64,000 nt of DNA from Microvirga vignae. Its GTDB lineage: Bacteria > Pseudomonadota > Alphaproteobacteria > Rhizobiales > Beijerinckiaceae. The position numbers were made by a program, and so were the translations under genes. The stretch covers positions 1-64,000 of the forward strand of contig NZ_LCYG01000062.1 of the NCBI RefSeq assembly GCF_001017175.1, read 5' to 3'. The notes below the pieces were generated by a model. That model ran no database searches and was not told where the DNA came from. It worked only from the letters and a program-made list of their open reading frames with translations. Numbering within the stretch: position 1 is the first letter of the stretch; the number at the start of each line of letters is the position of its first letter. Shown piece by piece: positions 24,869 through 35,558 of the stretch.

Positions 24869-24953
24869 GCCCCTGTGGCGGAATTGGTAGACGCGCTCGA
24901 CTCAAAATCGAGTTCCGCAAGGAGTGCTGGTTCGATCCCGGCCAGGGGCACCA
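24869..24953 (+). tRNA. tRNA-Leu(CAA)
   Basis: An 85-nt class II tRNA with acceptor GCCCCTG/CAGGGGC, encoded CCA, a D-arm with GGTAGAC, and anticodon stem CTCGA/TCGAG with loop CTCAAAA (anticodon CAA). The variable arm and T-loop TTCGATC are present. Its last bases form the left attachment site of the element that follows. Confidence 0.95.
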
Positions 24954-24954
24954 T
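24940..24954. repeat. attL, left end of the tRNA-Leu integrated element
   Basis: GGCCAGGGGCACCAT, the tRNA-Leu 3' end plus one base, recurs exactly at 35544-35558 next to the integrase gene. Everything between the two copies has lower GC and mobile-element genes. Confidence 0.88.
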
Positions 24955-25255
24955 CCCTTTTCAGATGGTACGGCAGAAAGCCGAAGAAATATCAACGAAA
25001 TCAGAGCTTAAGCCTACAGAGGCTAGTCGGATGGCAAGACACTGGCAAGCCCATCTTTGTACGTCCTTTTGTACCACCGAATGCTGTTTCCTTAGCTTAG
25101 CTCCAGCATCCCGTCATGCCAGGAAATATCCTTTAGAGAATCACATGGGCTGAGCTTCTGGGTTCCCAGCTCAAGTTCAGCGAGATGCCACAGAAAAAAT
25201 TCTAAATTCTTCTGAAAAAATTCTGCACATCCCTTGAAACCGCTAAGCTTGGTAC
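24955..25255. other. Gene-free left end of the element with possible integrase arm sites and A-tract repeats
   Basis: No gene is visible. CTTTGTAC (25055) and TTTTGTACC (25067) resemble CTTGTACC and CTTTGTACC beside attR (35459-35478), so they may be integrase arm sites. Two exact 11-bp repeats GAAAAAATTCT (25193-25203, 25214-25224) sit 21 bp apart just before TTGAAA at 25234-25239, a possible -35 for the non-coding RNA region; no good -10 is seen. Confidence 0.45.
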
Positions 25256-25390
25256 TTACCTCAGCTTGGCCGTCAGGATTGGCTGATCGGTGCGACTGTT
25301 GAGACCGTCAAGTTCGTTGACGATCCAGGTGACGACGACTTCGATGAAGATCGCCGACACAAGGTGAAGCAGGGATGCGACGCCGGGCAT
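25256..25390 (-). CDS. Small hydrophobic peptide ORF antisense to the RT leader
   Basis: A 44-residue ORF on the strand opposite to the reverse transcriptase. GAGGAGG (25399-25405) lies 8 nt before the ATG, the best Shine-Dalgarno in the element, and its codons have high GC3. The peptide begins MPGVASLLHLVSAIFIEVVV, contains a likely membrane or amphipathic helix and ends at TAA. The reading frame is open upstream as far as 25585. It could be a free-standing small protein, a toxin-like peptide, or the start and body of a repeat ORF assembled by the reverse transcriptase. No match is known to me. Confidence 0.45.
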   Translation of the reverse strand: MPGVASLLHLVSAIFIEVVVTWIVNELDGLNSRTDQPILTAKLR

Positions 25391-25560
25391 AGCTCGGACC
25401 TCCTCGGTTACAATATACCGCATAGCGTTTATTAGGCCCGCACTTGTGAGAGCTTGATGCGACACGTCAGGAAGGATCTGGTGGATTATGGTGTGCGTTC
25501 GAGGGACGCTCAGGGTTTCCTGAAGTCCCGGGCTAGGACTAGTCCCTCGAACTCTGCTAT
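25259..25560 (+). ncRNA. Candidate structured non-coding RNA / template region of the DRT2-like system
   Basis: About 300 nt directly upstream of the reverse transcriptase gene, where DRT2 systems carry their template RNA. Visible structure: hairpin CGTCAA-GTTCG-TTGACG (25306-25322); a long stem GTTCGAGGGAC (25497-25507) with GTCCCTCGAAC (25542-25552) enclosing two small hairpins (TCAGG/CCTGA and GTCC/GGAC), a three-way junction ending 17 nt before the RT start. CGACAC occurs at 25355-25360 and 25460-25465, exactly 105 nt apart. Boundaries and identity are inferred from position and folding only. Confidence 0.5.
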
Positions 25561-25569
25561 GAGGTTTCT

Positions 25570-26805
25570 GTGAAGCCTCACTGGTTTAAGCCGCGCAATT
25601 ACAGGCACTTTGATGTCCCAGTGGGGATTGGCTTCGCGGAGAAAGTCGTTGCAACTGACTTCGCAGCCCAGCATCCGTTCTCTCCTCACATCTCCTATAT
25701 CAAGAGCGACAAGCGTTATCGGCTCGATCCGAAGAATCCGCATCTTGGGCGTCAGATAAAGATCAAGACCCGCGAGATTATGTATGCGTCCCATCGCGAC
25801 GCCTGTATTCTTGGGTATTATTCCGCGCAGCTTGGGCTACGTCTAGAAAAGTTATACGCAGAGTCAGCGCTTGGTGACAATGTCATTGCCTACCGTGCTC
25901 TCGGAAAGGCGAACTATCATTTCTCTGCTGAAGCACTTCGGTACGCAGAGGCGAATGCGCCCTGCATGATACTTGCGTACGATGTATCTGGTTTCTTCGA
26001 CAGCCTTGATCACGGCATTCTGAAACAGCGGCTCAAGGACATCTTAGAGGTCTCTGAACTTTCTCCCGACTGGTACGCTGTCTTTCGACAAGTCACTAAG
26101 TTCCGCAAGATCGCTCTCGACGACCTCAAGGCGCATTCCACCTTTGGGGCGCGGATCAAGGATAAGGCACGTCGGCCCATCGCTACGGTCGCGGAGGTCA
26201 AAGCCGCGGGTATTACAATCACGCCAAATCCCAATCAGCATGGTATCCCACAGGGTACCCCGATAAGTAGCACCTTTGCGAACCTCTATATGATTGAGGT
26301 TGATCGCAAGATTGCATCTGCTTGCACGAAGGCCGGAGCATTTTATCGACGGTACTCAGATGACATCCTGATCATTTGTAAGCCCGAGGATGCACTACGG
26401 TTAGAGTCAGTTGTGCTTGATGCAGTTGATAATGAGCGATTGGCGCTCAATACCGACAAGATTGAACGCACACTGTTTGACCGCGCTAATTATCGAAGCG
26501 CTCAGTACCTCGGGTTTTTGCTTAATCCTAAGGGCGCGGCTATCCGCCCAAGTTCCCTATCGCGACAATGGCGGAAGCTAAGACAAGCCGCAAAACGGAT
26601 TGAGAAAGCCGGTAACGAAGCTATCGCCGCTGGTCGCGCGAAGAAGATTTATACACGGAAGCTACGTAAGAGGTTCGCGCCCTTGCCCCTGCGCAACTTC
26701 TCATCATATGCCCGACGAGCCGCTGAGGAGCTTAGGTCCAAGGTCGTCCGGCGACAAGCAAGGCGGATTGAGCGGGAACTAGAGAAGATAATCAGCCGCT
26801 TCTAG
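25570..26805 (+). CDS. Reverse transcriptase, DRT2 (UG2)-like antiviral type
   Basis: A 411-residue reverse transcriptase. The N-terminal WFKPRNYRHFD and the segments YASHRDACILGYY and AYRALGKANYHFS match what I recall of Drt2 proteins. The RT core has the catalytic aspartate D138 in AYDVSGFFDSLDH, GIPQGTPISSTFANLYM (225-241), the YSDD box (262-265) and YLGF (313-316). There is no maturase, HNH or protease domain, and the C-terminus is a basic helical thumb. GTG start with GAGG 5 bases upstream. In known DRT2, the enzyme copies a neighbouring RNA into tandem cDNA repeats that encode a toxic repetitive protein during phage infection. Assignment to DRT2 rather than another UG class is from memory, not a search. 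Confidence 0.75.
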   Translation: MKPHWFKPRNYRHFDVPVGIGFAEKVVATDFAAQHPFSPHISYIKSDKRYRLDPKNPHLGRQIKIKTREIMYASHRDACILGYYSAQLGLRLEKLYAESALGDNVIAYRALGKANYHFSAEALRYAEANAPCMILAYDVSGFFDSLDHGILKQRLKDILEVSELSPDWYAVFRQVTKFRKIALDDLKAHSTFGARIKDKARRPIATVAEVKAAGITITPNPNQHGIPQGTPISSTFANLYMIEVDRKIASACTKAGAFYRRYSDDILIICKPEDALRLESVVLDAVDNERLALNTDKIERTLFDRANYRSAQYLGFLLNPKGAAIRPSSLSRQWRKLRQAAKRIEKAGNEAIAAGRAKKIYTRKLRKRFAPLPLRNFSSYARRAAEELRSKVVRRQARRIERELEKIISRF

Positions 26806-27250
26806 TCGACGAACACTTTTTATCAACACTGAAACATGCCTTGAGATTTTGCCGAAAAATTTGTGAGCCTATTCGATAACGGCCCCTGAAGTAGAATCCC
26901 CCGGTGGCCAGGTCCTGCTTTTCATAGGCTCAGCGGTGTGATCGAGGAAATGAACCGCTGAGGTGACTCGGTTCATCCTCACAACACGATCTGGCCGACT
27001 ATTCTTCAAGAGTCTGACGCCAATGATCGGGAGCAGCCGCCCATTCTATCTTTGAGGCTTGGTCAAAAAGAGGGACCAGAAGCGGGGGCAGCTCCTGATC
27101 CCAAGGTAGTGAACAGTGATCCATCTAGGGGCAGCTGATGGTACTGTTCGTGTAAGAAGCTGACCGCTAAGCTTGCTTCTGTCATTGGAAATAGAGTCCT
27201 AACCCATTAGTGACTCTAGCTTCTCATCATCTCAATAGGTCCTGCCCCAG
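26806..27250. other. Gene-free stretch between RT and resolvase
   Basis: I see no ORF of coding character. There is no intron domain V-like hairpin after the RT, arguing against a group II intron. Composition is intermediate in GC. Confidence 0.4.
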
Positions 27251-27348
27251 TGATAGCCGATCCAAGCTCGTCCATAACCTATCATATAAATCCATGTTGA
27301 CATTTTGATAGGCACCGATCACATCTTCTTCGAGTCTATTGATAGGCA
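27251..27348. promoter_or_regulatory. Probable resolvase binding/res region
   Basis: TGATAG-type motifs cluster before the resolvase gene: TGATAG (27251), the inverse CCTATCAT (27278-27285), and two identical 10-mers TTGATAGGCA (27305-27314 and 27339-27348), 34 bp apart. A TTGACA (27297-27302) overlaps them. This layout fits a recombination site that also autoregulates the resolvase promoter. Confidence 0.5.
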
Positions 27349-27357
27349 GAGGCTGAC

Positions 27358-27915
27358 ATGATCATTGGATATGCAAGGACCAGCACGACAGACCAGAAAG
27401 CCGGATTAGAGGCGCAGGAGCGCGATCTTAGGGCCGCTGGCGTGGAACGACTCTATCAGGAGCAGACAAGCGCCACAGGGCCGCGCAAGGCGCTGGCTGA
27501 GGCTATCGACTACGCAAGACATGGCGACACCCTTGTTGTCACCAAGCTCGACAGGCTTGCCCGGTCTGTCGCTGAACTGGTGAGCATCACCAAGCAACTT
27601 GAAGCTAAGGGCGCATCCTTGCGTGTCCTCAACCTGAATCTGGACACTGAAACCCCAACCGGAAAGCTGATGCTGAATATGCTTGGCTCAATCGCTCAGT
27701 TTGAGCGTGAGCTGATGCTTGAGCGTCAGCGTGAAGGAATCGCTAAGGCTAAGGGTGAAGGCAAATACAAGGGCCGTAAACCCACAGCTAGGGCCAAGGC
27801 TGATGAGGTTATGCGCTTGGCTGAGACAGGTCTGAGCCGTGAGCAGATAGCCAAAGAGCTTGGGATAGGTGTTGCCAGTGTTTATCGGGTGTTGGCATCT
27901 ACCCGCCATCAGTAA
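27358..27915 (+). CDS. Serine recombinase (resolvase/invertase family)
   Basis: A 185-residue small serine recombinase. The nucleophile is S9 in GYARTST, with arginines in TKLDRLARS, the long helix containing GSIAQFERELMLERQREGI, and a C-terminal helix-turn-helix (LSREQIAKELGIGVASVYRVL). It is complete. It probably acts on the TGATAG repeat region upstream, for multimer resolution or inversion of part of the element. Confidence 0.9.
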   Translation: MIIGYARTSTTDQKAGLEAQERDLRAAGVERLYQEQTSATGPRKALAEAIDYARHGDTLVVTKLDRLARSVAELVSITKQLEAKGASLRVLNLNLDTETPTGKLMLNMLGSIAQFERELMLERQREGIAKAKGEGKYKGRKPTARAKADEVMRLAETGLSREQIAKELGIGVASVYRVLASTRHQ

Positions 27916-28081
27916 AAGTGCCCGTCGGAAGTCCGGCCCAATCAAGTATTCGTACGCTACGACATAGGATCTAATTCAGGAGGTTCATCTCGGAATGTGG
28001 CGTCTCTAATCCTTAATCCTATGCAGTTCTGTGTAGCGTTACGCGGTATGTTAGATGAGAGCTTATCTGGTGAGGCAGATC

Positions 28082-28390
28082 ATGGCCGGATCAATAGGCG
28101 GCGGAATTGAGCATGAAGAAGAGCAGAAAAGGCGCGACTTCCTCGCTGACATAAAGTCTAGCATTGCACATGCCGTAACGGGCGATGCCTTTGATCCGAA
28201 GCTGATCTTCCGGTTCTTCGAGATAGGTGGAGCAGCAACAGCAATCATCGGGTCCCTGCTAATTGTATATGGCCACTACGAGAACCAAGAATTCCATCAA
28301 TATGCCGTTGGCTTCGGATTCATTGCTGTTGGCATACTAGCGTATATTGTTCCACAGCTTGCAGAAATTTGGGGCGATCCCAATGGATAG
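28082..28390 (+). CDS. Small membrane protein, first of an overlapping pair
   Basis: A 102-residue protein with a charged N-terminal helix (HEEEQKRRDFLADIK) and two membrane helices (about 48-66 and 74-94). The start at 28082 has GTGAGG 6 bases upstream. Its last 8 bp overlap the next gene, implying coupled expression. I do not recognise the family. Confidence 0.6.
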   Translation: MAGSIGGGIEHEEEQKRRDFLADIKSSIAHAVTGDAFDPKLIFRFFEIGGAATAIIGSLLIVYGHYENQEFHQYAVGFGFIAVGILAYIVPQLAEIWGDPNG

Positions 28391-28802
28391 CTTCCTAAAT
28401 GCTTTCGCAACCTCCGCGATATGGGCCTTTATTGTTCTGGTTCTTGCAACCTCGCTCCTTATGTTATTTGACAAAAACTATGCGATAGCCGCTTGGTTCA
28501 CCGAGGGTGCTCTTTACATCATTGTAGCCACATGGGGAAAAAAGTTAGCCATCAGCTTCTACCTCCGAGTTAACGGCAAGGCAGATATTTCGGGTCAATT
28601 CTCTTCCGCTGACCAAGATCCTTTTGCAGGGCTTACTGCTATTGCTGGAATTGTTGCTTGCGGGATATTCGCTTCGCTAATGATGATTCTTCGACATAGC
28701 TATGAACTTCAGAAGTTGAAACTACAGCACGGTTCCGGTGCCTTGCCACCAGCTCCTCCAACTACCCATGCGGCACCGGGTGGACCAAGCCCTTCAGGGT
28801 AA
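28383..28802 (+). CDS. Small membrane protein, second of an overlapping pair
   Basis: A 139-residue protein with membrane helices near 10-30, 38-58 and 83-104 and a proline-rich, probably disordered tail. It starts within the previous gene (28383 versus stop 28388-28390). The pair may form one membrane complex. Family and function are unknown. Confidence 0.6.
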   Translation: MDSFLNAFATSAIWAFIVLVLATSLLMLFDKNYAIAAWFTEGALYIIVATWGKKLAISFYLRVNGKADISGQFSSADQDPFAGLTAIAGIVACGIFASLMMILRHSYELQKLKLQHGSGALPPAPPTTHAAPGGPSPSG

Positions 28803-29060
28803 ATTACGGCAACTATGACAGTTAGCATTGGCCCTGACGCTTCCTATTAGGACTAAGCCAATGATTTTCCTCGCCCTATAGAAAAACTCATTAGTGCATA
28901 TATCCTATAATTGTCAGGATAGTTTTATTGATATGCTTAAATATAAGTTCTCGAATTGTTTTAACTATGTTTATACTAAGTATTGACTAATAAATACTTT
29001 CCGTGCCAATCCGCATTTGTTTCGTTCTGTCTGTTCGGGTGTGGATACGGAAAAGGAATA
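28803..29060. other. AT-rich gap before the replication-like genes
   Basis: A distinctly AT-rich stretch (many TATA and TTAA steps between 28870 and 28990) with no coding ORF. Its position before a polymerase-like operon makes it a candidate promoter or origin, but no repeated iteron is visible. Confidence 0.35.
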
Positions 29061-29726
29061 ATGTTTTACATTTGCCAAGCGCCGGGATGTGGCTCCCGCG
29101 CTGCTACTCGTTACGGCATTTATTGCTCTTCTCATAAGGCTCAGCTCAGGCGGCACGGGGCTATCGGCCAAAGAGCGATTACCAAGGCTGACTTGAAGCT
29201 CTACCGGGCTTTGGTCGCAGCACGGCTTGAGAAGAACAAGGACAAGCCTCTTCTGACGCAGCTTGAAGCTCGTTGGGGAGCAGTCCTCACCTATGCCGAA
29301 AGTGTCCGTGAAGAGGCGCGGCGAAAGCCTATGGTTCGGTATAGACGTGAAGCCGCGATTGAAATGCTGAGGATCGGCAAGAACGTTCAGCCGGGGGATG
29401 TGATCGAAACCGTCTTGGCAATGTACGTGATGCAAGATCAACAGCCTCGCTGCTTCAAAAGCGATCAGGCGTTCAGGACACAAAAGGTCCGTAGAGTCCG
29501 AGGTCTGACTCGGCTCAACGCCGACGCATGGACTGATGCGAAGACCGGAAAGAGGAAGCTCGTCTATCGTGACCTGGGCCAGCGTACCGTGACCATCATG
29601 GGTGGCTGGATTGCTGAGGCTTTGGGTCCAGCGGGGATCATGTTCGCTCGGCTTGAACGCAAGGATCATGAGAAGAAGCAAGAGGCGTTGCTGGCCTTTC
29701 GTGATGCGTTAGGGAGCATGGAATGA
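29061..29726 (+). CDS. Zinc-finger protein of mobile-element type
   Basis: A 221-residue protein with an N-terminal metal-binding cluster C5, C10, C22 and H25 in CQAPGC...YCSSH, followed by a basic helical body. The start at 29061 has AAAAGGA upstream; the longer TTG frame lacks one. It overlaps the next gene by ATGA, so the two are probably translated together. It may be a DNA-binding partner of the polymerase-like protein; this is inference from coupling. Confidence 0.6.
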   Translation: MFYICQAPGCGSRAATRYGIYCSSHKAQLRRHGAIGQRAITKADLKLYRALVAARLEKNKDKPLLTQLEARWGAVLTYAESVREEARRKPMVRYRREAAIEMLRIGKNVQPGDVIETVLAMYVMQDQQPRCFKSDQAFRTQKVRRVRGLTRLNADAWTDAKTGKRKLVYRDLGQRTVTIMGGWIAEALGPAGIMFARLERKDHEKKQEALLAFRDALGSME

Positions 29727-31087
29727 CGCTTCCTGCCATCGAGTTTGATGAGACCCAGACGAACGAGCAAGATGAGGACAGGTTCTTTGATCCGTGGAGA
29801 ATCCCGCGGTCAGAAGGAACGAAGACGCTTATCTGCAAGATCATCGGCAACGTCCAAGTTTATGAGGAGTATTACAACCTTCGTCAGCGAAAGCGCAGAA
29901 GGAAGGATCAGGAGACACATGAGGCGACCGTCTCAGCGGTGATGTGCGACCTGATGCACGCCGTTCTCATGCAGGATCAGCGAGGTATTGCAATCCCACG
30001 GTCCAACCAAGTGCTGGGCAGGGGTGATCGATACCAAGCTCCTGCTGAGAACCGTCAGCTTCCTTACGTTCTTGATGCGCTTGGGAGCAATGCCTTGGAA
30101 TGGCTTGTCGAGGAACGTGGGTACATCAATCACTTTGGGCGCAATCAACGGACGCTTATCAAGCCCACGCAACGCCTCGTCGACAACATGAAAGAGTTTG
30201 AAGTCGAGTTGCGCGGCCTTGGGCGCTGTAAGACCGAGGAAGTCATCATCCTCAAAGCCGAGAAGGAGGACTATTGGGATAAGGGAGCATACCTCCCCTA
30301 CGATGATACGGCGCTGACCAACCGCTATCGTGAGGAAATGCGTATCATCAACTCATGGCTTGCTGGGGCAAGCATTGAGTTTGACGAGGCTGCGCTTGAA
30401 CGAGACCGCCCTATCGACACAGGCAACCTCACGCTCAGGCGCTATTTCAGCCAAGGGTCGTTCGAAAGTGGAGGAAGACTGTTCGGCGGGTTCTGGCAAG
30501 GGTTGAGCGAGGAGGAGCGCCTTGAAGGACTCATCATCAATGGTGAGAACGTTGTGGGTTTAGACTACGGACAAATGGCCCCCCGCATCTTGTACGGGCT
30601 TGCAAAGGCTCAACCACCAGAAGGCGACCTATACGACATTCCCGGCCTAACCACGGTCAACGGACGATCGTACAGGGAAGGCGTAAAGAAGGTGATGAAC
30701 GCCCTGATGTTCTCCGATGGTTTACCCAAGCGTAAGCCGATGGAGACTAAGAGCATCCTTCCACCTGACTTGTCTATTCAGGAGGTAGTTGACCTCATCC
30801 TGCAAGCCCATCCTGCTATCGCTCACCTTCTTGGAACTGAGGTTGGACACAAGGCTCAGTTCATTGAGAGTCAGGTGATGGTGAAGGTGCTTCTCAGGCT
30901 GAGGGAGCAGTCTATCGTGGCTTTGCCTATTCATGACGGGTTGGTCATACCAAGTGAGGCTGAGGCTAAAGCTGTGATGATAGATACATTCAAGGATGAG
31001 GTTGGAGTTGATTGTCCTGTATCTGTTGAATTGAGTAAGGATCGTCACCCACTGTTTAACATCAATGGTCTATTACAGGTGGGATAA
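29723..31087 (+). CDS. Polymerase-like protein with family-A-type motifs
   Basis: A 454-residue protein. The C-terminal half has three segments in the order of family A DNA polymerases: VVGLDYGQMAPRILYG around D281 (like motif A DYSQIELR), GRSYREGVKKVMNALMF around R318-K323 (like the O-helix RxxxK), and ALPIHDGLVIP with H404 and D405 (like motif C VHDEL). A RLFGGFWQG segment precedes motif A. There is no room for an exonuclease domain. It follows the zinc-finger gene with an ATGA overlap and precedes RNase HI, suggesting replication of the element. The assignment is by eye and needs a profile search. Confidence 0.55.
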   Translation: MTLPAIEFDETQTNEQDEDRFFDPWRIPRSEGTKTLICKIIGNVQVYEEYYNLRQRKRRRKDQETHEATVSAVMCDLMHAVLMQDQRGIAIPRSNQVLGRGDRYQAPAENRQLPYVLDALGSNALEWLVEERGYINHFGRNQRTLIKPTQRLVDNMKEFEVELRGLGRCKTEEVIILKAEKEDYWDKGAYLPYDDTALTNRYREEMRIINSWLAGASIEFDEAALERDRPIDTGNLTLRRYFSQGSFESGGRLFGGFWQGLSEEERLEGLIINGENVVGLDYGQMAPRILYGLAKAQPPEGDLYDIPGLTTVNGRSYREGVKKVMNALMFSDGLPKRKPMETKSILPPDLSIQEVVDLILQAHPAIAHLLGTEVGHKAQFIESQVMVKVLLRLREQSIVALPIHDGLVIPSEAEAKAVMIDTFKDEVGVDCPVSVELSKDRHPLFNINGLLQVG

Positions 31088-31186
31088 GAAAGAGGATAGT
31101 CACCCATCCTGTATAACTACCTATCTAACCATCTCCTTTATAGGGCGTCGTAAGGCCCCCTGATCTTCAATTTACAATGAGAACAC

Positions 31187-31666
31187 ATGACACAAGAAGC
31201 AACTGGACAAGCCATTGTCTTCACCGATGGCGCTTGCCTGAAGAACCCCGGACCAGGAGGTTATGCCGCCCTGATCCTTATCGATGGCGAGGAGAAAGTT
31301 ATTACCGGAGGCGATCCGGCCACGACTAACAATCGCATGGAAATGACCGCAGCCATCAAGGCGCTTGAGGCCCTTCCTGCTGGCGCGAAAGCGATCCTTC
31401 ACAGCGATAGCCAGATCGTCATCAAGGGGATGAACGAATGGCTCACAGGATGGAAGGCGAAGGGCTGGAAAAATGCGGCACGTCAGCCTGTCGCAAACCG
31501 TGAGCTATGGGAGGTTTTAGATAGGCTCAACGTTGAGCGACAGATCACTTGGCAATGGGTCAAGGGTCATGCTGGGCATGAGCAGAACGAGCGGGTTGAT
31601 AGACTTGCTAATGCTGAGGCTGAGAAAGCGGCTGAGGCGCTAAGGCAAGGTGTAGGGATGCAATAA
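31187..31666 (+). CDS. Ribonuclease HI
   Basis: A 159-residue RNase H with the DEDD residues visible: D14 in FTDGACLKNPG, E52 in NNRMEMTA, D74 in LHSDSQIVIKG and D138 near ERVDRLAN, plus the GHAGH loop. It would remove RNA from RNA-DNA hybrids. Its place in an element that also encodes a reverse transcriptase and a polymerase is notable; it lies 99 bp after the polymerase gene. Confidence 0.92.
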   Translation: MTQEATGQAIVFTDGACLKNPGPGGYAALILIDGEEKVITGGDPATTNNRMEMTAAIKALEALPAGAKAILHSDSQIVIKGMNEWLTGWKAKGWKNAARQPVANRELWEVLDRLNVERQITWQWVKGHAGHEQNERVDRLANAEAEKAAEALRQGVGMQ

Positions 31667-32010
31667 CGGCTTCCTACCGCTTAACGATCACTCTCTTGGA
31701 AGCTAACCACCGCAACCGAGAGGGATTCTGATCTGTGGGCTTGTCCAGGTATTTTCTTGGGGTAAGTGACCATAAGCCGGACAGTATCAGGTCAGTCCTC
31801 GTCCAACATGCCTATGCACTGCGAATCCACGGGTAGGTAGGTAAAGTCTAGCCCGTGGCTTACGATGATCGCTACATCCCACTTTCGATGCTATAATTAG
31901 CATTAATGCAACACATTTGCGACTTCTTGGCTGAACATCTGCTGGAAAGCATGAGGTGCATTGCCTTCATCGCACACTCATTGAGCTAGAACTCCCTCGG
32001 AAAGCCCAGG
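31667..32010. other. Intergenic region before the TIR gene
   Basis: No ORF of coding character. It contains an inverted repeat CCACGGG...CCCGTGG (about 31827-31858) that could terminate the RNase H transcript or regulate the next gene, and a TATAAT-like box near 31890 without a clear -35. Confidence 0.4.
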
Positions 32011-32865
32011 ATGGCGGATATTTTCATCAGCTATGCCAGAGAGGATCGGGATAGGATCATTCCTTTTGTTCGCCTCCTTGAAGCCCAGGGATGGACCGTA
32101 TGGTGGGATCGAAAAATTCCAGTCGGGAAAACCTTTGAGCAGGTGATTAAAGAACAGCTTGCCACAGCCCGCTGCGTTATTGTCGTCTGGTCTACCGAGG
32201 CTCTCGGCTCTGGCTGGGTTATTGATGAGGCCGGAGAGGGACGCAAGCGCGACATCCTGTTACCAGTTCTCTTTGATCGGGTAGAGCCGCCGTTTGGCTT
32301 CCGTCAACTCCAATCTGCCAACCTATCAGACTGGCACGGGCAAGCTGATCATCCTGAATGCCAGCAACTTATCGCAGACATCAGTGGGCTCCTAGGCGGT
32401 GGATCCAAGTCTTCGTATCCATTGCCGGAACCGAGAGCTGAAGATTATTACACTAGCATGGACGACGACAATTATAGTATAGTGATGTCTATGCTTCCAT
32501 TGATTACAGCGTTTATCACTTTTCTCCTAATTTCTATTGTGGCACTAATCATCGCAAGTCAAGCAGATATCAGTGACGATTCCTTAGTTGTGCTGGTTTC
32601 ATTGATAGGATTTGCATTGAATATCCTATCATTTGTTTTAACATGGGCACTAAGGCATAGACTCGATCAATTCCGACCAGGGCTAATGAGCATATGGGTT
32701 AATTTTAACATCATATTTTTCGCATTCTTAGCCATGCTTCACAATCTAGGTACTGACAGCCAAGTCATGCGGACTGTCTTTATTTTGATCGGCTTCCATT
32801 CAATGCTTAGTGTGGCTATTTTATATTTAGTCACGCGACTGGGTAGAGGAACAGTGCCAAATTAG
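32011..32865 (+). CDS. TIR domain protein with four C-terminal membrane helices
   Basis: A 284-residue protein. Residues 1-130 form a TIR_2 domain: DIFISYAREDRD, GWTVWWDRKIPVGKTF, VIVVWSTEALGSGWVIDEA. Helices follow at about 160-183, 191-214, 227-245 and 254-275. At the position where NADase TIRs usually carry the catalytic glutamate (before the conserved G39) there is P37-V38, so NAD hydrolysis is doubtful and a scaffold or signalling role is possible. TIR-membrane fusions occur in phage defence; involvement here is inferred from context. Confidence 0.8.
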   Translation: MADIFISYAREDRDRIIPFVRLLEAQGWTVWWDRKIPVGKTFEQVIKEQLATARCVIVVWSTEALGSGWVIDEAGEGRKRDILLPVLFDRVEPPFGFRQLQSANLSDWHGQADHPECQQLIADISGLLGGGSKSSYPLPEPRAEDYYTSMDDDNYSIVMSMLPLITAFITFLLISIVALIIASQADISDDSLVVLVSLIGFALNILSFVLTWALRHRLDQFRPGLMSIWVNFNIIFFAFLAMLHNLGTDSQVMRTVFILIGFHSMLSVAILYLVTRLGRGTVPN

Positions 32866-33054
32866 TGTGAAACGAGAAGCCTATTTATACACAGACCCAC
32901 ATTTCATCTGTCAAAATCCGCAATAGCGGCGGTTAAACCCATTCGTGTTCAACCTCCTCAGCCTCACTTCTCCTCTGCCATTGACGACAATCACGAAGCA
33001 ACAAGCGTAGCCATTCCCTTGGGTCACGCTATAGTCCCCGTATGGGGGAGTTGA

Positions 33055-33447
33055 ATGAAGAAGACGCCGAGTCCTTGGAGCGTTCACCAAGGCCGTGATC
33101 CTGAGGCAGAGCTACGCCGTCTCAAAGGTCGCTTTCAGAAGGTATCAAACCGCTACTTCCGCAGCCTTAAACTCCGGCGGTCCTACCGCTTTGCGACCCT
33201 AGCCATACTGCTTATGGTCGGCTCATTCGCCGTGACTTGGGGCTTGCTGACCTTCAAACCGTGGTCAGTCCTATCGTCTAGCTCTTGGACTGTGGCAATG
33301 ATGGCGAAGCACATCGCGGCCTTCCCCAACTGTTCCGCCGCTCGTCTAGTCGGATTAGCCCCAGCCTACATGGGTCAGCCGGGATACTGGCCGCAGCATG
33401 ACCGGGATAGCGATGGCTGGGCCTGTGAGCCCTATCCCCGTAGGTAG
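33055..33447 (+). CDS. Membrane protein with C-terminal Excalibur calcium-binding domain
   Basis: A 130-residue protein: basic N-terminus, one helix (46-66) and a C-terminal Excalibur domain with NCSAAR and the calcium motif DRDSDGWACEP (116-126). The C93-C124 pair probably forms the domain disulfide outside the membrane. Ribosome site GGGGGAG lies upstream of the ATG. Confidence 0.82.
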   Translation: MKKTPSPWSVHQGRDPEAELRRLKGRFQKVSNRYFRSLKLRRSYRFATLAILLMVGSFAVTWGLLTFKPWSVLSSSSWTVAMMAKHIAAFPNCSAARLVGLAPAYMGQPGYWPQHDRDSDGWACEPYPRR

Positions 33448-33449
33448 CG

Positions 33450-33486
33450 TCCCGCGTGTAACAAACTTCCAAGATCACACGCGGGA
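33450..33486. terminator. Hairpin between convergent genes
   Basis: Perfect 10-bp arms TCCCGCGTGT (33450-33459) and ACACGCGGGA (33477-33486) lie between two convergent gene ends. There is no long T run, so it is called with moderate confidence. Confidence 0.5.
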
Positions 33487-33497
33487 TTGAAGATCCA

Positions 33498-33833
33498 TTA
33501 GTTGCAGCGACGAATCCGCCGCGTCACAGTGCGACCCCAGCGGTCCTGTTCTTCAATGGTGATGTTTCGGCAGCGTTCTTCATAAGCACCATAGCGCCGC
33601 TCACGCTCAGCATCACGCCGTCCCTGCTCGTATGCCCGTGCGCGTTCCGCCTCCCGCCGCTGACGCCAACGCTCACGACGCTCATATTCCTCCTGCTGAG
33701 GATCACGAACCCCGATCTGAGGGCGACCGTCTGAACCAATGCCAAACTGGAGTGTCGGCTGAGCCATTGAGGGCGATGCGATGCAAAGGCTAGACCCAAG
33801 CGCAACCGCAGCAAGCAATACAATTCTTTTCAT
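33498..33833 (-). CDS. Secreted, arginine-rich hypothetical protein
   Basis: A 111-residue protein with a clear signal peptide (cleavage near SMAQ) and a mature part dominated by an RRERWRQRREAERARAYEQ-type charged helix, ending in CRNITIEEQDRW...RRCN with two cysteines that may pair. No known family. Confidence 0.65.
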   Translation of the reverse strand: MKRIVLLAAVALGSSLCIASPSMAQPTLQFGIGSDGRPQIGVRDPQQEEYERRERWRQRREAERARAYEQGRRDAERERRYGAYEERCRNITIEEQDRWGRTVTRRIRRCN

Positions 33834-34097
33834 AAAGGGCGATTCCTATTCGACAGTCGCGGCCATTGGTTTCAAGCTTAACCTTCGCGACGCGCGGCAC
33901 CTCCCCCTACATCAAGGCAAAAAAATGGCTTTGTACCGCATTTGGCCATTTGACCCGGCCCATGAAGCCCACCATGCTCTGAGGTTTGTTTCAAAAATCT
34001 CTGAGCCTATCGCTCAACCCGTGTTCAGCGCTGTTCCCCCTTGGGGTGGTCCTCCGAATGCCTCATCTTAAAGAGTTCAGAGGACCATCACAAACTG
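33834..34097. other. Gap between secreted protein and integrase genes
   Basis: A 48-codon ORF on the plus strand (ATG at 33925 with AAGG upstream, beginning MALYRIWPFD) is possible but has little to support it, and I do not call it. Nothing else is visible. Confidence 0.3.
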
Positions 34098-35468
34098 TTA
34101 GAGCAACGGCTGAATAGATCGCTGTAGCGCCTCGGCAAGTACCTTCAGGTCATACCCTTTGCCATAGTTGGCGCTCACTCCCCCGCCAGAATGACCAAGG
34201 ATGCGATCCTGTACGTCGGAGGGTACGTTAGCGTTCCGCATCAGGTCTTTCACCGTATGACGCCAACTATGCCAAACCACACGACGATCTTTAATCCCTG
34301 CCCTCTCGCGAAGCATCTTCATGAGCGCGGCTGACGCCGCTGTAGCTCCCTTGGCTCCCTCAGCATAGCGAGGAAACAGCGGCCCGGTTGGATTCTCCTC
34401 CTTCGCTTCTATGAGCGCCGTCAGAGCAGGCCCAACAGGAGCGATGATCCGGCGGCTCGACTTATTCTTCACCGTTCTGATTCCGTTTGGATAGATGGTC
34501 AGCGAAGGCACATCGCACGTCAGGTTCACATCCTCTGCAAGAAGTCCCGTTACTTCTTTAAGCCGTGCACCTGTAAGGGCTGAGACAAGCCCGATCCTTT
34601 GCAAGTCCGTGTTTGCCGTATCAAGGCAAGCAATGACTGCTCGTCCTTGTTCAAGGGTGAATGAGTCTCGCTTATCCCGGTCAGGCACATCATCATGCGC
34701 CCTCAACCCATCCCAAGGATTAGTCTTGTCCAACTCCAACTCACGGAAAGCAGCGGCAAACACAGCTTTGAACAGATATATTTCCTTGTTTACTGTTTCA
34801 GGCTTGAAGCGAGTCTTCACCTCATCGAAGTACGCACGGGCTTCAATACGGGACACATCACCCACGAACTTATCTGTTCCAAGGTGAGCGATCAGCCGAT
34901 CAATCGACCGTCCACGATCTTTCTCGAACTTTTTCCTGTTGTCCTTTCCTTTATCGGAGCGATCACGAAGATAGAGTTTGAGAGCATCCCGTATCGTGAG
35001 ACGCGGCGTAACCTTACTGCCTTCTGCAAGGGCAACAGCCTTGCTGACAATATCGAACTCGATGTTTCGTGGCGCTCGCCTCTCCCAATCGTCAACGTCT
35101 GAGTACCCATGACGCTGAACCACCCAATCACCCGCCCAAATCTTCAGTTCGTCAGGGTACGGCCCAAGAGCAGTCACCAGCTCCCGCGCCTTTTCAAACT
35201 TCTCAAGCTCACCAATCAGCTTGGCTTGATCAAACCTGAGCCTACGGAAAAGCTCATCGTACTGCTTATCCAAGGGCATAGCTCTCATCAAAGCAATCCG
35301 CTCATCTTTAGTATTAAGGGTCTTCAGAATCTCCCTCTTACCAATAATCTTACGTAATTCAGCAGGAACAGTCTTACGGTAGCGGTAAATTCCAGCCTTA
35401 GTCTTCTGAATGTTAGTCATATTTATGAAATTGCCACGAGAAAGCTTACGAGTTTGACCTTGTACCAT
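34098..35468 (-). CDS. Tyrosine recombinase, integrase of the tRNA-Leu element
   Basis: A 456-residue phage-type integrase. The catalytic residues are visible: R302 in TGARLKEV, H400 and R403 in WHSWRHTVKD, H426 in LGHSGGG and the nucleophile Y435 (or Y439) in ANYGKGY. AGGAGG eight bases upstream fixes the start at 35468. It reads inward 76 bp from attR, the classic arrangement for an element in a tRNA gene. Confidence 0.92.
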   Translation of the reverse strand: MVQGQTRKLSRGNFINMTNIQKTKAGIYRYRKTVPAELRKIIGKREILKTLNTKDERIALMRAMPLDKQYDELFRRLRFDQAKLIGELEKFEKARELVTALGPYPDELKIWAGDWVVQRHGYSDVDDWERRAPRNIEFDIVSKAVALAEGSKVTPRLTIRDALKLYLRDRSDKGKDNRKKFEKDRGRSIDRLIAHLGTDKFVGDVSRIEARAYFDEVKTRFKPETVNKEIYLFKAVFAAAFRELELDKTNPWDGLRAHDDVPDRDKRDSFTLEQGRAVIACLDTANTDLQRIGLVSALTGARLKEVTGLLAEDVNLTCDVPSLTIYPNGIRTVKNKSSRRIIAPVGPALTALIEAKEENPTGPLFPRYAEGAKGATAASAALMKMLRERAGIKDRRVVWHSWRHTVKDLMRNANVPSDVQDRILGHSGGGVSANYGKGYDLKVLAEALQRSIQPLL

Positions 35469-35543
35469 GCTTTGTACCTCCTAATTAAGGCAAAGCTCTG
35501 GACTCGTTGATTTTTATAGCCTTCTATACCTCAGTTAGACAGA

Positions 35544-35558
35544 GGCCAGGGGCACCAT
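35544..35558. repeat. attR, right end of the tRNA-Leu integrated element
   Basis: An exact 15-bp copy of the tRNA-Leu 3' end (GGCCAGGGGCACCAT). With attL at 24940 it delimits about 10.6 kb. Confidence 0.88.

Follow-up and report, generated by a model that had tools for sequence, protein, structure and literature searches.

A putative DRT2-type system with a predicted 129-nt, GUU-bounded repeat unit in Microvirga vignae and its alphaproteobacterial relatives

Does the short leader in front of a reverse transcriptase (RT) gene of Microvirga vignae serve as the template of a repetitive gene without stop codons and, if so, where does the repeat unit begin and end? We studied a stretch of 64,000 nucleotides from this bacterium (RefSeq assembly GCF_001017175.1, contig NZ_LCYG01000062.1, positions 1 to 64,000, forward strand), which is called the window below. 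The RT, of 411 amino acid residues, is encoded at 25570-26805 on the + strand and has a GTG start; a preliminary description of this DNA, made from its letters alone, had placed the gene correctly and proposed that it belongs to a divergent DRT2 system. According to the available text of two papers (PMC12039810 and PMC11100668), DRT2 of Klebsiella pneumoniae (KpDRT2; PDB 9c0i) copies a template bracketed by ACA words, giving a unit of 120 nt. The units of concatemeric complementary DNA (cDNA) of 42 close DRT2 homologues were inferred by the same ACA bracketing in PMC12039810, and PMC11100668 reports that the encoded protein, Neo, was harder to annotate in divergent DRT2 clades, for which it suggests possible alternative mechanisms. 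From comparison of the RT family, the conserved RNA, the unit boundaries, the promoter geometry, and the open frame, we consider, with a probability of about 0.8, that this is a complete abortive-infection system of the DRT2 type, belonging to a divergent clade of alphaproteobacteria and having a 129-nt neo unit anchored by GUU.

The enzyme was compared with profiles, solved structures, and related RTs. Among the PADLOC profiles, Drt2 ranked first (1.1e-120 and 2.6e-93), the next family was RT_UG17 (8.7e-26), and Drt9 reached only 2e-15. RVT_1 was the sole Pfam domain, with no effector domain, and the closest solved structures were KpDRT2-type chains, of which 9c0i was matched at 8.6e-57. An AlphaFold2 model, made from 26 sequences of the window and its relatives' loci, had a mean predicted local distance difference test score (pLDDT) of 93.9. 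In a Foldseek search with this model, 9c0i (the complex of the DRT2 RT with its non-coding RNA, ncRNA) came first (TM 0.89, E 3.6e-34, 421 columns), and the second match was DRT9 (TM 0.48). We also made a quick tree of 83 RTs, with three loci with short frames omitted and with support from the Shimodaira-Hasegawa-like approximate likelihood-ratio test (SH-aLRT) only. In this tree the window RT belonged to a clade of 44 rows (SH-aLRT 100, stem 1.09). Where its members carry a title, they are alphaproteobacteria or are labelled merely as proteobacteria. KpDRT2 was in another clade, of 11 rows (SH-aLRT 98), which places the window RT outside the Klebsiella-type clade. The profiles, the match to 9c0i, the tree, and the predicted fold agree, and by these comparisons the window RT is assigned to the DRT2 (UG2) enzymes, in a divergent alphaproteobacterial clade, as had been proposed.

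For the leader, the best 80 of the 136 relatives found were kept. The comparison comprised 46 leaders, namely those of the window, L026, L027, and 43 of the 80 (L028-L066, L068-L070, and L072; identity of at least 43%). L067 was omitted, its leader being cut by a contig end; the remaining rows were outside the clade, and L001-L003 and L023-L025 were duplicates of retained loci or of the window. As the sampling was uneven and many rows from Rhodobacteraceae were near copies of each other, we also used a non-redundant set of 23 leaders, from which leaders at 86% identity or more had been dropped. A search of viral contigs with a protein query and a profile query found no relatives; three distant matches in phage records were set aside and not used.

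The leader appears to be a conserved ncRNA of about 295 nt, located by alignment, covariation, and a covariance model at 25266-25560 on the + strand, with approximate ends, and consisting of a template with 5' and 3' scaffolds. The consensus of the 23 non-redundant leaders had 53 base pairs, 39 of them with compensatory change; with four extra pairs in the 5' hairpin, 43 of 57 pairs were changed on both sides. Of the cells at paired positions, 93.1% could pair, compared with 81.7% in shuffled alignments and 30-47% when the partners were slid, and not one of five measures of covariation was reached in 500 shuffles. The 5' handle hairpin, which resembles stem-loop SL1, lies at 25270-25290 (in helix 1, six of seven pairs changed on both sides and 88.1% of cells paired). 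It is followed by the 5' strand of a template-closing helix at 25294-25298, the partner of which is 25405-25409 (93.0% of cells paired; three of five pairs changed on both sides). The covariance model (R1) scored 263.8 bits in the window, which was one of its own training rows.

The 3' scaffold at 25491-25557 is a full-length match to the Rfam family RT-13 (RF03017; 75.4 bits, gathering score 69.1). This family covers just the 3' 67 nt of the ncRNA, and the predicted template lies upstream, outside the Rfam model. Nine more members of the clade were scanned; all had RT-13 upstream of the RT, and in seven of them the match exceeded the gathering score. Among 385 genomes of the class, three, including the window's own, had a match at E<=0.001 and two passed the cut-off; none of 14 control genomes had a match. 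In the seven Klebsiella-type members scanned (L071, L073, L074, L078, L079, L082, and L108), RT-12 was found in place of RT-13, above the gathering score in five. The RNA model of the window clade found none of these seven leaders at E up to 1, so homology between the RNAs of the two clades is argued from their position and from the RT. As an observation apart, the Rfam families follow the DRT2 clades, with RT-6 in Faecalibacterium (L098, 2642-2716), RT-12 in the Klebsiella type, and RT-13 in the window clade; in the same scan, no Rfam RT family was found in Dyella (L084).

Where, then, would the template lie in this RNA? In the alignment of the 46 leaders, it is predicted between two GUU words. 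The 5' anchor at 25298-25300 (+), which takes the place of ACA-1 and would supply the first template bases, is GTT in 44 leaders and GTC in two; the 3' anchor at 25427-25429 (+), in the place of ACA-2, is GTT in 44 and GTA in two, and the two words are identical in 42 of the 46. The predicted template, or neo unit on the - strand, is 25298-25426, a unit of 129 nt with 43 antisense codons and no stop. We carried the two GTT columns from the window to its 45 relatives by the leader alignment. The resulting units were of 129 nt in 34 leaders, 132 nt in six, 123 nt in two, and 126, 120, 114, and 66 nt in one each, and every one of the 46 lengths is divisible by three. After joining, all 46 units were open in antisense frame 0; the other two antisense frames were open in none and in two. 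The exact position of the joint is resolved only to within the shared word.

The preliminary description had drawn the boundaries elsewhere. It proposed a 105-nt unit between two copies of CGACAC (25355 and 25460), with GATGCGAC (25374 and 25456) as a competing boundary; the coordinates of both repeats were right, as was its remark that GATGCGAC, with copies 82 nt apart and hence not a multiple of three, would break the frame, and this word was ruled out as a boundary for that reason. Within 25259-25585, CGACAC is indeed the longest repeat giving an endless frame, yet it is one of 110 such pairs (at least 3 nt, at a distance of 60-180 nt that is a multiple of three), so that the pair by itself is uninformative. 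A unit bounded by CGACAC forms no junction promoter and would exclude both the conserved -35 box and the 5' GUU, and the word is not kept in L028, the RT of which is 79% identical and which has CGCCAC and TGACAC at the two positions. On the absence of the promoter and the change in L028 we rejected the CGACAC boundaries, and a unit bounded by either repeat is now very improbable. The unit had also been called unusually short; the comparative unit of 129 nt falls inside the 111-129 nt given for DRT2 in the available text of PMC12039810.

Joining two units at GUU brings together signals that are far apart in the leader. On the - strand, the -35-like box TTGACG (25306-25311) can be used only across a repeat junction, where it comes to lie 17 bp from the -10-like box TATATT (25412-25417). 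The -35-like box has TTG in all 46 leaders (exactly TTGACA in 30), and the -10-like box matches TATAAT in at least four of six positions in 45 (exactly in 23); the spacing of 17 bp between the TTG box and the -10-like place across the junction is found in all 46. Read antisense, the window joint (marked by a slash) is TTGACG GTCTCAAC / GCTATGCGG TATATT, followed by GTAACC GAGGAGG TCCGAGCT ATG. The Shine-Dalgarno (SD)-like word GAGGAGG (25399-25405, -) and the predicted neo start ATG (25388-25390, -), 8 nt apart, had already been seen in the window, and they are conserved in relatives: an SD-like word with a start codon is present in 44 leaders, and an in-frame Met at unit residues 8-16 likewise in 44. 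It had also been seen that the antisense frame runs without a stop between 25585 and 25259 (the bounding stops are at 25588 and 25258). An open antisense frame alone is weak evidence; the conserved arrangement as a whole is beyond chance. The strand that encodes the repeat product, on which the preliminary description was unsure, is opposite to the ncRNA strand, as in the characterised systems (available text of PMC12039810 and PMC11100668).

The same arrangement bears on whether the antisense frame could be a small gene of the conventional kind. Two plasmid relatives are annotated in this way, with antisense hypothetical open reading frames (ORFs) in the leader at 2177-2305 of L026 (129 nt) and 2171-2305 of L027 (135 nt). 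In an unjoined leader, the -10 and -35 boxes would be in the wrong order; moreover, the conserved length is the distance between the two GUU words, and the sequence covaries as an RNA on the opposite strand. We regard a small gene as scarcely credible. The two annotated ORFs overlap the predicted neo unit in the ncRNA leader.

Can the unit be found without the alignment? We used a caller that requires -35 and -10 boxes 16-18 bp apart across a joint, together with a shared word (three letters or more), an open frame, and a length that is a multiple of three; it also records an SD with a start codon. With SD and start, it returned units in 47 of 83 leaders (many of which are near copies), in one of 83 on the opposite strand, and in 17 of 3320 dinucleotide shuffles; without SD and start, the corresponding counts were 57 of 83, nine of 83, and 216 of 3320. 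For the window leader, it returned a single unit, the 129-nt GTT unit; a unit of any kind came from 125 of 3000 shuffles of this leader, and one with SD and start from 18.

Outside the window clade, the shared word was a different one. In the KpDRT2 clade it was TGT, which is ACA on the RNA, in nine of ten leaders (L071, L073, L074, and L078-L083); L078, L081, and L083 lacked an SD, and the tenth, L108, returned ATCT. ACA is also the word published for KpDRT2 itself. The words were CAA, TGCAAT, and GTAAT in the Dyella leaders (spacer of 18 bp), CAAT and CAATC in two leaders from Firmicutes, and ACTAA in that of Companilactobacillus; two metagenome-assembled genomes, from Bdellovibrionia (TTAAC) and Acidobacteriaceae (ATCAAC), gave calls without an SD. 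The calls with CAA, CAAT, and TAAT in Dyella and Firmicutes (L084, L086, L091, L097, and L098) correspond to words of AUU/UUG type on the RNA. Judged by eye, the 18 calls displayed sit within about ten bases after the 5' hairpin. Weaker calls outside the clade, without SD and start, were obtained for L076, L102, L085, L093, and L107.

The caller rule does not hold for all DRT2-like loci, since several gave no consistent call. In a second DRT2-like clade of Rhodobacteraceae (L092, L095, L096, L100, and L106), neither the default nor the relaxed boxes produced a neo call, and L087 gave none even with relaxed boxes. Once the boxes were relaxed, two calls with an SD came from each of L075 and L077, and two and six without an SD from L088 and L105, none of them consistent; shuffles of these ten leaders with relaxed boxes gave SD calls in 1-7 of 100. 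Six leaders were also examined with a promoter rule of the Bacteroidetes type; the single call was in L090 (75 nt), with calls in 0-5 of 200 shuffles per leader, and the rule was abandoned as yielding no result.

Several observations weigh against the reading of the locus as a complete DRT2 system with a GUU-bounded neo unit. Some concern the boundaries. The anchor word of the window clade is GUU, not ACA. The boundaries were transferred after the fit had already been seen in six of seven leaders, and the seventh of these early leaders (L025, later L058) did not fit at first; its unit of 66 nt, half the usual length, is divisible by three and stop-less, and is implausibly short. A single length is also shared by 34 of the 46 units. 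For a dozen of the 46 leaders, the caller in its default form either returned nothing or settled on a different shared word. It was silent on L029, L037, L042, L043, L061-L064, and L066 and proposed a different unit (117 nt) in L032; in L030, L058, and L059 it reproduced the aligned length, though on a different shared word. Relaxed boxes, applied to L029, L037, L042, L043, L061, and L066, recovered only the 132-nt unit of L037 and gave a 60-nt call in L061. The units of such clade members rest on the alignment.

Others concern the RNA and the enzyme. The consensus structure was derived from the alignment in which the pairs were counted, which favours the structure. The folding energy of the window RNA showed no excess stability over shuffles (z -0.46; 60 of 200 shuffles were at least as stable), and so the earlier description of the leader as structured holds for covariation among relatives and fails for folding energy. 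The window RT scored 362.9 with the NCBIfam Drt2 model (NF041746), below the cut-off of 390. Of six clade relatives tested, two passed it (L036, 402.1; L066, 396.3) and four did not; this cut-off is a naming threshold that the window clade straddles and is no trait of the DRT2 system. Early stops were present in the RT frames of three of the 46 clade loci (L041, L060, and L072), which would suit a degenerate or inactive locus. In the window, the RT frame is uninterrupted with its YSDD motif, and the RNA and unit are intact, which makes inactivity of this locus most unlikely.

The remaining points concern the protein. The window unit translates to AMRYIVTEEVRAMPGVASLLHLVSAIFIEVVVTWIVNELDGLN; its GC content at the first, second, and third codon positions is 0.65, 0.33, and 0.70, and its grand average of hydropathy is 0.93. 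Over the 23 non-redundant units, the mean hydropathy was 0.62 (range -0.76 to 1.06), and that of shuffles was -0.22. Purifying selection on Neo was not seen in 14 close pairs, which had 84 nonsynonymous and 34 synonymous codon changes; the nonsynonymous share of 0.71 was close to the 0.72 that random changes would give if stops are avoided. As the residues change as if neutral, the protein reading is weakened, and the case becomes stronger for another one, in which the leader is a DRT2 scaffold and template whose product acts as DNA or RNA, the open frame being a by-product of GC-rich sequence. In addition, the ncRNA-sense frames of the joined units were open in 11, 14, and none of the 23 non-redundant units, the mean probability that frame 0 is open in a unit after dinucleotide shuffling is 0.23, and the alternative mechanisms raised in PMC11100668 point the same way. 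Such a product would not explain why all 46 lengths are divisible by three with the same antisense frame open, why SD and start are kept in 44, or why the promoter spacing is fixed at 17 bp, and we judge it rather unlikely. Support for a Neo protein comes from the lengths of the compared units, their lack of stops, and their start signals, rather than from residue conservation.

If the window locus is a DRT2 system of this kind, it may work as follows, by analogy with KpDRT2, from which RNA binding, jumping, second-strand synthesis, transcription, toxicity, and the phage trigger are carried over. The 3' scaffold of the ncRNA (about 25266-25560) would be the part held by the RT, which would copy the template from 25426 to 25298, as far as the 5' GUU. 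There the nascent cDNA end (AAC-3') could pair again with the 3' GUU (25427-25429), and copying would restart, giving tandem repeats of 129 bp. Each junction would form a sigma70-like promoter (TTGACG-17-TATATT), driving a stop-less antisense mRNA with GAGGAGG 8 nt before ATG. This mRNA would encode a hydrophobic Neo of 43 residues per unit, which would arrest the infected cell. The cDNA, Neo, and phage defence are thus predicted for the window locus from the Klebsiella system.

How far does the locus resemble what is known? Like KpDRT2, as far as its features are given in the available text, it has a single RT without a further Pfam domain and an upstream ncRNA of about 280-295 nt, with a 5' handle hairpin, a central template, and a large 3' scaffold. 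In both, a helix that joins the upstream flank of the template to the stretch next to the -10 box closes the template, and the predicted antisense unit is stop-less, is divisible by three, and has a junction promoter with a 17-bp spacer and an SD with ATG after the -10 box. The window locus differs in its RT, which is 30% identical by structural alignment and belongs to a separate clade, in its anchors (GUU instead of ACA), in its unit (129 nt instead of 120 nt), and in its 3' scaffold, which is of the RT-13 family and not RT-12 as in the seven Klebsiella-type relatives scanned. With GTT at both template ends and the RT outside the KpDRT2 clade, it does not belong to the Klebsiella-type subgroup. 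DRT9 and DRT10 likewise combine a DRT with an ncRNA and make repetitive DNA; their products, as far as described in the available text, are different from the one predicted here, being poly-dA in DRT9 (PMC12483538) and protein-primed tandem-repeat DNA in DRT10.

The mechanism itself is known from DRT2 (PMC12039810 and PMC11100668); what appears to be new, from comparison of leaders, is one divergent clade with a jump word of its own. We found no paper on GUU-type DRT2, and it may be partly known in the supplements or the final Science version of the Tang paper, which lay beyond our search. We incline to a more general view, that the jump anchor of DRT2 is a lineage-specific word, both copies of which change together: ACA in the Klebsiella type, GUU in the alphaproteobacterial clade and in L076 and L102, two relatives on long branches, and an AUU/UUG type in Dyella and two Firmicutes. 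Just the identity of the two copies, at a conserved place after the 5' handle, would then be needed, and the anchor could be likened to the alignment region of telomerase RNA. This bears on the model of cDNA-end re-pairing, because the copies are mostly matched (42 of 46) while the word differs between clades.

The surroundings of the locus suggest a mobile element. A gene for tRNA-Leu (24869-24953) lies just upstream of the DRT2 locus, and a 15-bp repeat made of its end and the next base (24940-24954) recurs at 35544-35558, beside a phage-type integrase gene (34098-35468, - strand). As the tRNA-end repeat recurs beside an integrase, the DRT2 locus is probably the first inside an integrated island of 10.6 kb (24940-35558), which also carries genes for a resolvase (27358-27915) and an RNase H (31187-31666). 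A TIR-domain protein encoded on the island (32011-32865), whose C-terminal half looks membrane-like by eye, has weak matches to the ThsB, SAVED-TIR, and PDC-S66 models, and is possibly a second defence gene. A 454-aa protein (29723-31087) matches the phage family phrog_4756 of unknown function (2.6e-30); the ORF of 247 aa that precedes it (28983-29726) had no match in Pfam, PADLOC, or PHROGs. Among 21 relatives scanned, four had tRNA genes, mostly for different tRNAs, no more than about 800 bases from the RT or leader (L028, 4435-4510; L032, 4309-4384; L061, 2216-2305; L062, 2501-2590), and L034 had two further off; these fit carriage on islands.

If the proposed reading is true, one divergent clade of DRT2 would be accounted for by the same mechanism with another jump word, and a role could be proposed for the Rfam family RT-13. 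The ACA bracketing rule of the literature would miss hidden genes of this kind, which might instead be sought by a rule without ACA, namely the same word twice, a 17-bp promoter across the joint, and a length divisible by three.

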